Positions 18,531-22,703 of a stretch of 28,268 nucleotides of DNA are shown piece by piece. Source of the DNA: a virus. The DNA lies in IMG/VR virus record IMGVR_UViG_3300025205_000001, positions 1-28,268 of that record; one strand, 5' to 3'. The stretch's first letter is position 1. Every line of letters starts with the position of its first letter. The position numbers were made by a program, and so were the translations under genes. The notes beneath the pieces are model-generated. The model saw only the letters and a program-made list of their open reading frames with translations. It did not search any database and was not told the origin of the DNA.

Positions 18531-19463
18531 ATGCCGATGTATTTCCGCAAGAAGGTCCTGCTGGCCAAGATCGAGACCACCTACGGCACCGACCCGACCC
18601 CGACCGGCGGGGCCAACGCGATCCTCGCCTCCGAGATCAGCATCCAGCCCATGCAGGGCGCCGATGCGGACCGGGGTCATGACACACCTTACCTGGGCGC
18701 CAACGCGACGATCCCCTATGATCTGCATGCCGTGATCAGCTTCAAGGTGGAGCTGGAACCCTCCGGCACCGCCGGGACCGCGCCTTCCTGGGGGCCGCTC
18801 ATGCGCGCCTGCGGCTGCGCCGAGACCGTCGGTGCCGGCACCGACGTGGTCTACAACCCGATCTCGGACAGTTTCGAGAGCGTCACGCTCTACCTGCACA
18901 TCGACGGGCATCTCTTCAGCCTGACCGGCGCGCGGGGGAACTGCGACATCACGGTCAATGCCAGCGGCATTCCGGTGCTGGAGTTCACCTTCACCGGCCT
19001 CTGGACCAAACCCGCCGCCGGTACCCTGCCCACGCCCGACTACAGTGCCTGGCAAAAACCGCGCATCGCGTCGAACACCGCCACGCCGACGTTCACCATC
19101 AACAGCGAAGACATGGTGATGCGCAGCTTCAAGCTGGCCTTGGGCAACCAGGTGGAGGGGCGGTTCCTGGTCGGCGCCGAGGAGATCGTCATCGTCGACC
19201 GATCCGATATGGTCGAATGCCAGGTCGAGGCCGTGGCCCTCTCGACCCTCGACCCCTGGGCGCTGGCGCGGGACCAGACCGCTGTCGCGGTGGCCCTGAC
19301 CCACGGCACCGGCGCCGGCCGCATCGCGGCGCTCTCGGCCCCGACCTGCCAGATGCAGCGCCCCGGCAATCCCACCGAGGCGCAGGGCATCATGGAATGG
19401 CCGCTCAACCTGGTCCCGCTGCCCGGCAGCGGCAACGACCAGTGGACCCTCACCCTGACCTGA
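18531..19463 (+). CDS. Major tail tube protein
   Basis: A 310-residue protein placed between tail terminator and tail chaperones. It opens YFRKKVLLAKIETTYGTDPT, a common start of siphovirus tube proteins, and continues with beta-rich segments (YDLHAVISFKVELEPSGTAG, GHLFSLTGARGNCDITVN, VLEFTFTGLWTKPA). A second strand-rich half (MVMRSFKLALGNQVEGRFLV) follows, so two related beta-barrel halves are likely. It forms the hexameric rings of the non-contractile tail; no sheath gene is present anywhere in the window, which supports a siphovirus tail. AAGGAGG upstream gives efficient initiation, suiting an abundant structural protein. Confidence 0.82.
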   Translation: MPMYFRKKVLLAKIETTYGTDPTPTGGANAILASEISIQPMQGADADRGHDTPYLGANATIPYDLHAVISFKVELEPSGTAGTAPSWGPLMRACGCAETVGAGTDVVYNPISDSFESVTLYLHIDGHLFSLTGARGNCDITVNASGIPVLEFTFTGLWTKPAAGTLPTPDYSAWQKPRIASNTATPTFTINSEDMVMRSFKLALGNQVEGRFLVGAEEIVIVDRSDMVECQVEAVALSTLDPWALARDQTAVAVALTHGTGAGRIAALSAPTCQMQRPGNPTEAQGIMEWPLNLVPLPGSGNDQWTLTLT

Positions 19464-19476
19464 CGGAGATCCCGCA

Positions 19477-19788
19477 ATGGCATTTCGTATCGCTGAAGAG
19501 CGTGTTTTCACGCGCACAGTCCAGACCGCCGACGGGCAGGACTTCCGCGCCGAGTTCCTCATCCTGCCGGACGAGGAAATGACCGGCATCGAAGCCCAGG
19601 GCGTCGAGGGCGAAAAGGCGATCATGCGCAAGATCGTGCGGCGCCTCGACGACATCGAGGGCGCGGACAAGCAGCCGGTCCCGCACTCGCCCGAGCTGCT
19701 GGAGCAGGTGATCGGCTTTGCCGACCTGCGGATCGCGCTCCTGCGGGCCTACAACGAAGGCCGCATCGAGGCCCGCCGGGGAAACTGA
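19477..19788 (+). CDS. Tail assembly chaperone (lambda G-like, zero-frame product)
   Basis: A 103-residue acidic helical protein directly after the tube gene and before the tape measure gene, where siphoviruses encode the chaperone that coats the tape measure protein during tail assembly. It starts FRIAEERVFTRTVQTADG with beta strands, then helices (KAIMRKIVRRLDDIEGA, LEQVIGFADLRIALLRAY). Its last codons, gga-aac, form the slippery heptamer GGGAAAC (19779-19785) just before the stop, and a -1 shift opens the following frame, giving a predicted 220-residue fusion. The zero-frame product corresponds to lambda gpG and the fusion to gpGT. Confidence 0.82.
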   Translation: MAFRIAEERVFTRTVQTADGQDFRAEFLILPDEEMTGIEAQGVEGEKAIMRKIVRRLDDIEGADKQPVPHSPELLEQVIGFADLRIALLRAYNEGRIEARRGN

Positions 19789-19845
19789 GATGGGCCGGGC
19801 GGGCGCTGATCGAGGGGCATTTCTCGGACCAGTCCGGCCCGGCCC
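19779..19845 (+). promoter_or_regulatory. Programmed -1 ribosomal frameshift signal
   Basis: The heptamer G-GGA-AAC (19779-19785) fits X-XXY-YYZ in the chaperone frame and lies immediately before its stop (19786-19788). After a 6-base spacer (19786-19791), GGGCCGGGC (19792-19800) pairs perfectly with GCCCGGCCC (19837-19845), a 9-bp all-GC stem; inside the 36-base loop CGAG (19811-19814) can pair with CTCG (19823-19826). Slippage leads into the frame reading LRWAGRALIEGHFSDQ. Lambda uses GGGAAAG at the same place. Confidence 0.85.
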
Positions 19846-20138
19846 GACAGATCGACCAGGACGCGGCGTTCTGGGGTATCCCGCCCGAGCTCTTGCGGAC
19901 AGAGGACGCCGAGGAGGCGCTCTGGCCCGAGCATGTCGCCGCGCTGGAGGCCTTTGCCGTCGTCAGCAGCCAGTGGCGGATCGAGCCGCGCTTTGGTGCC
20001 CCGACCCGCTGGCTGGGCCTGGACCACGCCGCCGCCGAGGCCGGGCTGCGCCTGGCGGGGATCGAGGTCACGCCCGACCTCTGGGCGGACATCCGGCAGA
20101 TCGAGCAGGGGGCCAAAGAGGCCTTGAACGGGGATTGA
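19785..20138 (+). CDS. Frameshift extension of tail chaperone (DUF1799-like, lambda T equivalent)
   Basis: An open frame of 117 codons entered by -1 slippage from the chaperone gene. It has no ATG or GTG start and its first TTG is at 19893, yet protein-like sequence with phage codon bias runs from the slippery site: RWAGRALIEGHFSDQSG, DQDAAFWGIPPELL, then WPEHVAALEAFAVVSSQWRI and RWLGLDHAAAEAGLRLAGIE, ending with WADIRQIEQGAKEAL. The second half resembles the DUF1799 family that precedes tape measure genes. As in lambda gpGT, the extension probably recruits tail tube protein to the tape-measure-chaperone complex. Synthesis only from an internal TTG is possible but would discard a third of the conserved-looking part. 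Confidence 0.75.
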   Translation: MRWAGRALIEGHFSDQSGPARQIDQDAAFWGIPPELLRTEDAEEALWPEHVAALEAFAVVSSQWRIEPRFGAPTRWLGLDHAAAEAGLRLAGIEVTPDLWADIRQIEQGAKEALNGD

Positions 20139-20150
20139 ACGGGGGGTGAC

Positions 20151-22703
20151 ATGACGCTGAACATGCATGCGCGCCTCACGGCTGACGGCAAGCAGGCGCA
20201 GGCGGAACTGGCAAAGACGGGCCAGGGCGCGCGCGGGCTGAAGACCGACGTCGATGCCCTGGGGCAAAGCGGCCAGGAGGCCTCGGCCGACTTCGTGGCC
20301 CTGCAGAAGCAGCTGCAGGCCTACAAGGTCGACCTGGTCAACCTGCGCACCGAGCACGCGGCGGCGAAGAAGCAGATCGACGGTCTGCGCGGCGAGCTGA
20401 CCAAGCTCAAGACAAAGGCCAACGAGACCAGGGCGCCTTTCAACAGCGCGGCGGGATCTGTCGGTAACCTGACCTCGCAGTTCAACGATATCGGTGTGAT
20501 GCTCGCGGCTGGTCAGAACCCCCTGCAACTGGCGATCCAGCAGGGGACGCAGATCGGGCAGGTGTTCCAGCAAACTGGTGCCAAAGGCAAGGATGCCTTC
20601 AAGCTCTTGTTGCAGGGCGCCACGGCGATGATCAGCCCGGTCAATCTGATCACCATCGGCACCATCGCTATGGGCGGGGCGCTGGTAAACTGGCTTAGCC
20701 GTAGCTCGGAAGAAGCGGAGAACGTAGAGGACGTCCTTGAGCGGCTTTCCGGTGGTGTCGACGCCCTGCGGCAGAGCGCGGCCCTGAGTGCATCCGAGAT
20801 CGTCGAACAGTTCGGTAGCATCAATCCTGAATTGGCCAGGATGCTGGCTCAGATCCGGGATCGGGGCTTGTCTGCCGTTGAGGCAGACGCGCGGGCTGCA
20901 GCGCAGGCATTGATCCGCGAGTCGGGCGGACTTGCGCTGGAGATATCTCGGATCGTGAGGCGTTCCGGAGATGCAGAAGGGCGGCGGTCAATCCAGGAAG
21001 CCCTGGGCGATCTTTACAATGCCGGGACTGTCGATGACCAGGTACGGGCCGTCGAGAACCTGAAACGCGTTGTCGATGGCGTTTCCGTCGGGGTGGCGGA
21101 TGCTCGTGACAAGCAGAAGGAGTTCCTGGACGCGGTTCTCGATACCGAACGGGAATTGCGGCGCGCGCAACAGGCCGGGAACGCCGTTGTGGACGTCTTG
21201 CGAGACGGCTGGTCCGGAGCGGTAGAGCGTGTCGAGGAGTATGCCCGGCTGCGCATTGAAGCCTGGCAGTCGGGCCAGGCGATGCTTGCAACCCTGCAAG
21301 AGGAAAATCACCTCCGAGCCACAGCGCTGGCCTTCGGCGAAGACAGTGTCGAGTTGGCAGAGGCCCGCGCGGCTGCGGAGCGTCGGGCATTCGAAGAGGT
21401 CCTGGCGGGTCTGGATGTGTCCGCCGATCTCAAGGACGAGATGCGTCTTGCCTTCGAGCACGGGCAGGCGCTCTCGCGTATCGAGCTGGCGGGCGGAATT
21501 GGCAGTGCCGCCGATGAAGCCACACGCCTCGCCAGCGAACTCGGCCGTGCGCTGAATGCGGCGATTTCCCTGTCTGCCCAGGGCGTCGCCGACATGCGGA
21601 CTGCGGAGATCAACTGGCAGTTCCGGGACGATCCTGTCGGACGGGCAGGCGCGCTGGCGGGCGAACGCTTCGACGCCGATGTCGGAGCCAATGCGGATCT
21701 GGATCCGCTCGCGCAGGATTTTTTGGCACAACAGCGTGCGGAGTATGTCGCCAACGCCAAGGCCGTCGAGGAGTTGCGTCAAAAGACCATCGCCTGGAGG
21801 AAGGAACAGGCCGAAGCCGGGCGGGCTGCAGGAGGCGCGGCCAAGGCCAGCCGCAAGGAACGCGAAGCCGTCCAGGATCTGATCGCGGCCAAGCGGGATG
21901 AACTGGCTCTCCTGCGCGAGAGCGACCCGATCCAGCAGGAGATGATCCGCCTGCGCGAGGACCTCGCCGGGGCGACGGAGGGCGAGCGGCGGGCGGTGGC
22001 GGGGCTGATTGCCTCGATCCGGGAGGAGGAGCTGGCCAAGGCGCAGGCGGCGGAATCCTCGGAGTTTTTCCGTTCCAGCATGGCGGATCTGATCCCGGAC
22101 CTGGTGCGCGGCGGGGATGAGGCGGCCTCGGCCTGGCAGCGCATGGCCCGGGCGCTGGAGGAAGCCGCCTGGCAGGCGCTGCTCTTGGGCGAGGGACCCC
22201 TGATGGGGCTGGTCAACATGCTCTTCGGGATCTCGGGGGGCGGTGGCGGCGCCCTTGGCTGGATCGGCAAGATCTTCGGCCTGGCCGAAGGTGGCGGGCA
22301 CGATGCGGTTGGCATGCACTACGGTCTGGGTGGACCGAAGGCGGACCTGATCCCGATCCTGACCTCGGCTGGCGAGTTCACGGTCAACGCCCGCGCGACC
22401 CAGAAGCATCGCCCGCTGCTGGAGGCGATCAATGCTGGCGCGCCGATCCCCGGCTTTGCCTCGGGGGGCGCGCATGGCGGCGGCAGCTACGTTGCGCCCG
22501 CGCCCCAGGTGAGCCTCAACCTCTACGACCAGACCAGCCGGGGCATCCGCCTGGAACAGGTGGAAGAGACCGGTCCCGACGGGTCGCGCCAGACTGCCTT
22601 CGTCGCCTCCGACATGGTCAACGACGCCATGAACCTGCCGGGCGGCAAGGCCCGCCGCTCCTTGCGCCGCAAGGGGCTGCGCGAGCCGCTGGTGCGCACA
22701 TGA
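20151..22703 (+). CDS. Tail tape measure protein
   Basis: An 850-residue protein that sets tail length and is ejected with the DNA. The N-terminal ~100 residues are coiled coil (LQKQLQAYKVDLVNLRTEHA). Residues ~109-137 carry the hallmark of the TMP_2 tape measure family (NDIGVMLAAGQNPLQLAIQQ), followed by a hydrophobic stretch at ~152-182 (ISPVNLITIGTIAMGGALV) that may insert in the inner membrane. A long helical middle leads to a C-terminal Gly-rich region with LAEGGGHDAVGMHYGLGGPK and SAGEFTVNARATQKHRPLL, typical of tape measures. The middle (about 20700-21870) uses visibly less GC-biased codons than both ends. Its length predicts a tail of roughly lambda size. The stop overlaps the next start (ATGA). 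Confidence 0.92.
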   Translation: MTLNMHARLTADGKQAQAELAKTGQGARGLKTDVDALGQSGQEASADFVALQKQLQAYKVDLVNLRTEHAAAKKQIDGLRGELTKLKTKANETRAPFNSAAGSVGNLTSQFNDIGVMLAAGQNPLQLAIQQGTQIGQVFQQTGAKGKDAFKLLLQGATAMISPVNLITIGTIAMGGALVNWLSRSSEEAENVEDVLERLSGGVDALRQSAALSASEIVEQFGSINPELARMLAQIRDRGLSAVEADARAAAQALIRESGGLALEISRIVRRSGDAEGRRSIQEALGDLYNAGTVDDQVRAVENLKRVVDGVSVGVADARDKQKEFLDAVLDTERELRRAQQAGNAVVDVLRDGWSGAVERVEEYARLRIEAWQSGQAMLATLQEENHLRATALAFGEDSVELAEARAAAERRAFEEVLAGLDVSADLKDEMRLAFEHGQALSRIELAGGIGSAADEATRLASELGRALNAAISLSAQGVADMRTAEINWQFRDDPVGRAGALAGERFDADVGANADLDPLAQDFLAQQRAEYVANAKAVEELRQKTIAWRKEQAEAGRAAGGAAKASRKEREAVQDLIAAKRDELALLRESDPIQQEMIRLREDLAGATEGERRAVAGLIASIREEELAKAQAAESSEFFRSSMADLIPDLVRGGDEAASAWQRMARALEEAAWQALLLGEGPLMGLVNMLFGISGGGGGALGWIGKIFGLAEGGGHDAVGMHYGLGGPKADLIPILTSAGEFTVNARATQKHRPLLEAINAGAPIPGFASGGAHGGGSYVAPAPQVSLNLYDQTSRGIRLEQVEETGPDGSRQTAFVASDMVNDAMNLPGGKARRSLRRKGLREPLVRT

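Follow-up and report, generated by a model that had tools for sequence, protein, structure and literature searches.

How the second of two reading frames in the tail region of this virus is translated is the question raised by positions 19477 to 20138 of the window, by which we mean the whole 28,268-nucleotide stretch of DNA analysed. This frame encodes a DUF1799 domain, lies one base back from the frame of the tail assembly chaperone and offers neither ATG nor GTG as a start. As judged from the sequence, it is very probably entered by a programmed -1 ribosomal frameshift of the lambda G/GT kind. The features concerned are as follows.

18531..19463, + strand: tail tube protein gene, 310 aa (PF18906 Phage_tube_2, E=1.2e-13; phrog_290)
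19477..19788, + strand: predicted tail assembly chaperone, 0 frame, 103 aa, gpG-like (phrog_569, E=5.9e-7; homologues match PF08748 Phage_TAC_4)
19779..19785, + strand: slippery heptamer GGGAAAC (G GGA AAC), in phase with the chaperone ORF
19786..19788, + strand: 0-frame TGA stop, with zero gap after the heptamer
19785..20138, + strand: -1 frame extension with the DUF1799 domain, gpT-like, 117 codons (PF08809, E=5.7e-12; phrog_680, E=1.8e-17; codon-position bias; AlphaFold2 pLDDT 91)
19792..19845, + strand: stem-loop with an inner hairpin, at a 6-nt spacer from the heptamer (folding; excess over synonymous shuffles)
20151..22703, + strand: tape measure protein gene, 850 aa (PF06791 TMP_2; phrog_25241, E=5.1e-81)

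The 103-codon ORF at 19477-19788 closes as G GGA AAC TGA, and no stop interrupts the -1 frame between 19497 and its own TGA at 20136-20138, with TTG 19893 as its sole common start codon. An earlier note on this DNA had placed GGGAAAC in the correct phase before the chaperone stop, counted 117 codons without ATG or GTG in the -1 frame and predicted a 220-residue product (103+117 aa), all of which we verified. The junction that it gave, GK-LR, has to be revised: tandem slippage with both codons decoded gives ...E-A-R-R-G-N-L-R-W (RRGN-LRWAG), and GN-LR is the likelier junction, since GK-LR would require a slip before AAC is decoded. It should be noted that a third-frame ORF of 119 codons, running from ATG 19790 to 20149, spans the whole DUF1799 stretch and forms a trap for gene callers; we rejected it as a gene, since in four relatives (L011, L024, L027 and L044) it runs into a stop after 13-39 codons.

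The genes are arranged in the order tube, chaperone, DUF1799 and tape measure, with portal, minor head, protease and major head genes farther upstream. The DUF1799 match (PF08809) of the -1 frame product reaches 46.1 bits against a curated cut-off of 26. The window chaperone is itself unmatched by PF08748 Phage_TAC_4, which is matched by 15 of its 37 aligned homologues at E<=0.01 (best 9.8e-37); the homologues also match the tail assembly chaperone family phrog_313. AlphaFold2 predicts a confident helix at residues 2-10 of the DUF1799 extension (mean pLDDT 95 over the first ten residues) and a long C-terminal helix in the chaperone, whose final residues have pLDDT near 69. Foldseek searches of the PDB with both models gave no match below E 0.001, and the VIA matches were weak; the predicted chaperone aligns with the HK97 tail assembly chaperone 2ob9 (Z 3.9, rmsd 4.4, 82 residues) at the level of unrelated folds. 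In BFVD, the matches of the DUF1799 model include Enterobacteria phage proteins named 'tape measure chaperone' (E 0.03-0.15). The C-terminal half of DUF1799 also weakly resembles the bL20 C-terminal domain (GLxY...L..AGIE), the sole match of the profile built on 19785-20135 against PDB sequences (E 0.0013; broadening the alignment weakened the match). Kinship with bL20 was discarded, bL20 not being among the structural matches listed, and the resemblance was taken as chance or convergence. A search of Rfam gave no match, nor did a search of plasmids with the window.

We compared the signal across loci bearing DUF1799. One set of 57 loci, including the window and near duplicates, was found via the window's proteins and partly gathered by DUF1799-protein patterns, the heptamer not being used; in 56 of them an in-phase GGGAAAC or AAAAAAC is followed immediately by a stop codon, the exception being Klebsiella phage JVSB2. 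As an independent sample, a PF08809 search of 398 Pseudomonadota genomes yielded 29 DUF1799 loci from previously unexamined genomes, all of which have an in-phase heptamer (28 AAAAAAC or GGGAAAC, one AAAAAAG), abutting the 0-frame stop in 24. Among the Pseudomonas-group loci (n=80), GGGAAAC is present in all, abutting the stop in 66 and preceding it by 3 nt in 14. By the terms of the earlier note, its reading would fail if homologues began the second gene with an ATG and lacked a conserved heptamer; when the pooled DUF1799 loci were examined for this, the in-phase heptamer was found in 165 of 166 (RRRAAAC, in one case RRRAAAG), which favours the note's reading. The stem sequence, by comparison, is kept at some sites and not at others, and what recurs is only a tendency to structure at the same spacing. 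Redundancy removal at 80% identity left 57 abutting sites, with 29 GGGAAAC and 28 AAAAAAC heptamers and with 46 TGA, 7 TAA and 4 TAG stops. In the window, RRRAAAC with a stop immediately after it is present once, versus 0.11 expected (both strands, any phase), and among 1005 ORFs of at least 100 codons from the 57 non-redundant loci it is the ending only at the 57 pre-selected sites.

Klebsiella phage JVSB2 (L016, 1378-1402), whose two genes overlap, is the only DUF1799 locus examined to lack an XXXYYYZ heptamer; the join between these genes presumably must differ in its working or rely on a weaker slip site. For the Mu-like phage PaMx73, T TTT TTC located 43 codons before the stop has been proposed (PMC4378225); unlike this, the DUF1799-bearing Pseudomonas phage loci (L014, L100-L151) have GGGAAAC at or next to the stop. 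Another idea considered, that the final C of the heptamer is retained to avoid forming ATG, GTG or TTG with TGA, is weakened by the occurrence of C before TAA and TAG as well.

The position of the stop suggests a refinement of the frameshift reading rather than an alternative to it, namely that the abutting stop is active, with slippage occurring mainly when the Asn tRNA occupies the P site while the stop codon waits in the A site; the release-factor level would then set the fusion ratio. Indeed, the adjacency in 24 of the 29 independent genomes and 56 of the 57 pattern-found loci contrasts with the PRFect paper (PMC10885494), where slip site and stop are on average 26 nt apart in the SEA-PHAGES data and 36 nt apart in the Xu set, and AAC is kept before TGA, TAA and TAG alike. 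However, the sites are related by common descent, which could by itself account for the closing codons; moreover, the stop comes 3-105 nt later in 5 of the 29 independent and 14 of the 80 Pseudomonas-group sites, and the junction peptide is identical for either timing, so that the sequence cannot discriminate. Zero distance between heptamer and stop is characteristic of DUF1799 loci and is not unique to them, as Burkholderia phage KL1 has it with another domain. We consider an active stop possible but doubtful. Equally tentative is the broader proposal that DUF1799 is in practice a frameshift-only domain behind a composite RRR-AAA-C-stop signal, in which the abutting stop would function through slow release, defining a stop-assisted subclass of sites.

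A different account would make DUF1799 a separate protein, translated from TTG 19893 or by ribosomes that terminate and then reinitiate close to the chaperone stop. Such a TTG exists, and gene callers often annotate the second CDS on its own in relatives. The distribution of substitutions, however, places coding in the -1 frame already upstream of this codon. Counting distinct substitutions between the window and seven close relatives, we found 44 of 74 on 0-frame third positions in the chaperone, 11 of 17 on -1-frame third positions from the heptamer to TTG 19893, and 23 of 41 on -1-frame third positions beyond it; among close relatives, the codon phase thus appears to switch at the heptamer. 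Together with the DUF1799 match, this bias bears out the claim that the -1 frame is protein-like. In addition, an L-x-x-A-G-R-A-W-A-x-G stretch is conserved from the first post-heptamer codon in 34 diverse homologues, and internal initiation at TTG 19893 would therefore remove a conserved start of the protein. The TTG is missing in the close relatives L008, L010 and L020, the -1 frame has no start ahead of it, and ATG 19790 belongs to the other frame, which is closed early in relatives. We regard separate translation of DUF1799 as highly unlikely.

Still less probable is a frame change by transcriptional slippage, which the six-A run of homologues with AAAAAAC might permit: GGGAAAC, the heptamer at 29 of the 57 non-redundant sites, has no run of more than three bases. 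The notion of one gene split by sequencing or assembly error is refuted by conservation and has a negligible probability, since the break falls at the same heptamer in isolates, genomes and metagenomes, 165 of 166 loci in all.

For the programmed frameshift, the downstream structure provides a further line of evidence. The earlier note described a 6-nt spacer followed by a perfect 9-bp GC stem with a nested hairpin, and we located each of these elements. The spacer from heptamer to stem reads TGAGAT, and the outer stem arms at 19792-19800 (GGGCCGGGC) and 19837-19845 (GCCCGGCCC) are exact reverse complements. The 65 nt at 19786-19850 have a folding energy of -38.6 kcal/mol (z -3.7 vs dinucleotide shuffles), with the nested inner hairpin present. 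We further shuffled synonymous codons of the extension at each of the 57 non-redundant sites, leaving protein and codon usage unchanged. The natural sequences fold better than the shuffles in windows that begin at +4 to +7 (mean z -1.2 to -1.3, Stouffer -9 to -10), whereas the excess is much weaker from +13 and absent further downstream. As the 57 sites are related by descent, the Stouffer value overstates their independence and the position dependence is the safer argument. Selection for folding, over and above what amino acids and codons impose, is confined to +4 to about +60. For the window's own extension z is -2.3, and 2 of 100 synonymous shuffles fold equally well. Individually significant downstream structure (5% or less) was found at 25 of the 57 sites, leaving more than half without; a stimulatory structure is common, not universal, across the homologous sites, and the stem is for this reason possibly dispensable. 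Folding of the vB_ThpS-P1 site revealed no comparable 9-bp stem. As for an upstream Shine-Dalgarno-like stimulator, an SD-like 4-mer was present at only 10 of the 57 sites.

Under the frameshift reading, the majority of ribosomes would read the chaperone to TGA and release the 103-aa protein. A minority would pause on the heptamer, the stem-loop then lying at the mRNA entrance and the codon to be read next probably being the stop. The Gly tRNA would re-pair from GGA to GGG and the Asn tRNA from AAC to AAA, in tandem one base back, with the downstream structure promoting this slippage, and reading would resume at CTG AGA TGG to give the 220-aa chaperone-DUF1799 fusion. As an A-site codon, AAC is regarded as slipping less readily in bacteria than AAA or AAG, which counts against this reading. 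Both forms would bind the tape measure protein, and the DUF1799 part would recruit tail-tube subunits. We infer the slippage itself, its rate and the roles of both products from lambda.

The frameshift of tail chaperones is textbook knowledge, and the equivalent site has already been flagged in Rhodobacter phage RcapMu, where the GenBank record labels the corresponding base a 'potential -1 frameshift'. Our contribution is the finding that an in-phase heptamer, usually touching the stop, precedes nearly every DUF1799 domain examined. The literature searched, outside subscription journals, contains no mention of DUF1799 together with frameshifting, and both the near-universal link and the composite heptamer and stop layout may be undocumented there. 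Recognition of the signal corrects a systematic annotation error, in which the second domain is cut short, labelled 'tail length tape measure protein' by mistake or assigned a false start. By analogy with lambda, DUF1799 likely serves as the gpT-like part of a chaperone fusion. Finally, the near-invariant layout makes stop-codon tuning of phage -1 frameshifting directly testable.

The -1 frameshift in the lambda G/GT tail assembly chaperone was reportedly described by Levin in 1993 and by Xu, Hendrix and Duda in 2004. The lambda heptamer is GGGAAAG. Like the lambda site, that of the window lies between the major tail protein and tape measure genes and has an in-phase XXXYYYZ shortly before its first frame ends, a start-less second frame and an expected fusion product. 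The gene order supports the equivalence to lambda gpGT claimed in the earlier note, as do the domain identity, the phase switch, the absence of an alternative start and, in homologues, the conserved heptamer, the stop and the structure downstream. Unlike lambda, the window has GGGAAAC, a stop directly after the heptamer and DUF1799 as its T domain. In lambda, the chaperone part attaches to the tape measure protein, and tail-tube subunits are brought in by the extension (reviewed in PMC5009743).

The nearest named phage is Thiobacimonas phage vB_ThpS-P1 (KT381864), followed by more distant matches to phages RC1, RS1 and RcapMu, and prophage relatives occur in Mameliella and other Rhodobacteraceae; RC1 and the RcapMu cluster have been described as Mu-type (PMC8601537). 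In vB_ThpS-P1, GGGAAAC followed by TGAGATGGGCCGGGC is preserved at about 41-48% protein identity, and the second CDS is annotated truncated. In Rhodobacter phage RC1 (L012, 1492-1836), the annotated CDS starts on the last base of the heptamer with a CTG codon, an artefact that the frameshift has caused in the annotation; like phrog_569 and phrog_680, this CDS is called 'tail length tape measure protein'. Genes 49/50 of RcapMu (NC_016165) share with the window GGGAAAC, then TGA, then DUF1799, whereas their proteins have diverged (about 28% identity in the extension) and the stem sequence differs. In Burkholderia phage KL1, gp18/gp19 (PMC3483164) are annotated as a joined frameshift product and likewise have GGGAAAC right before TGA (L180, 4450-4459), although the -1 frame domain is the unrelated PF23812 Phage_TAC_18 rather than DUF1799. 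This case suggests that the layout of heptamer and abutting stop spans several chaperone families.
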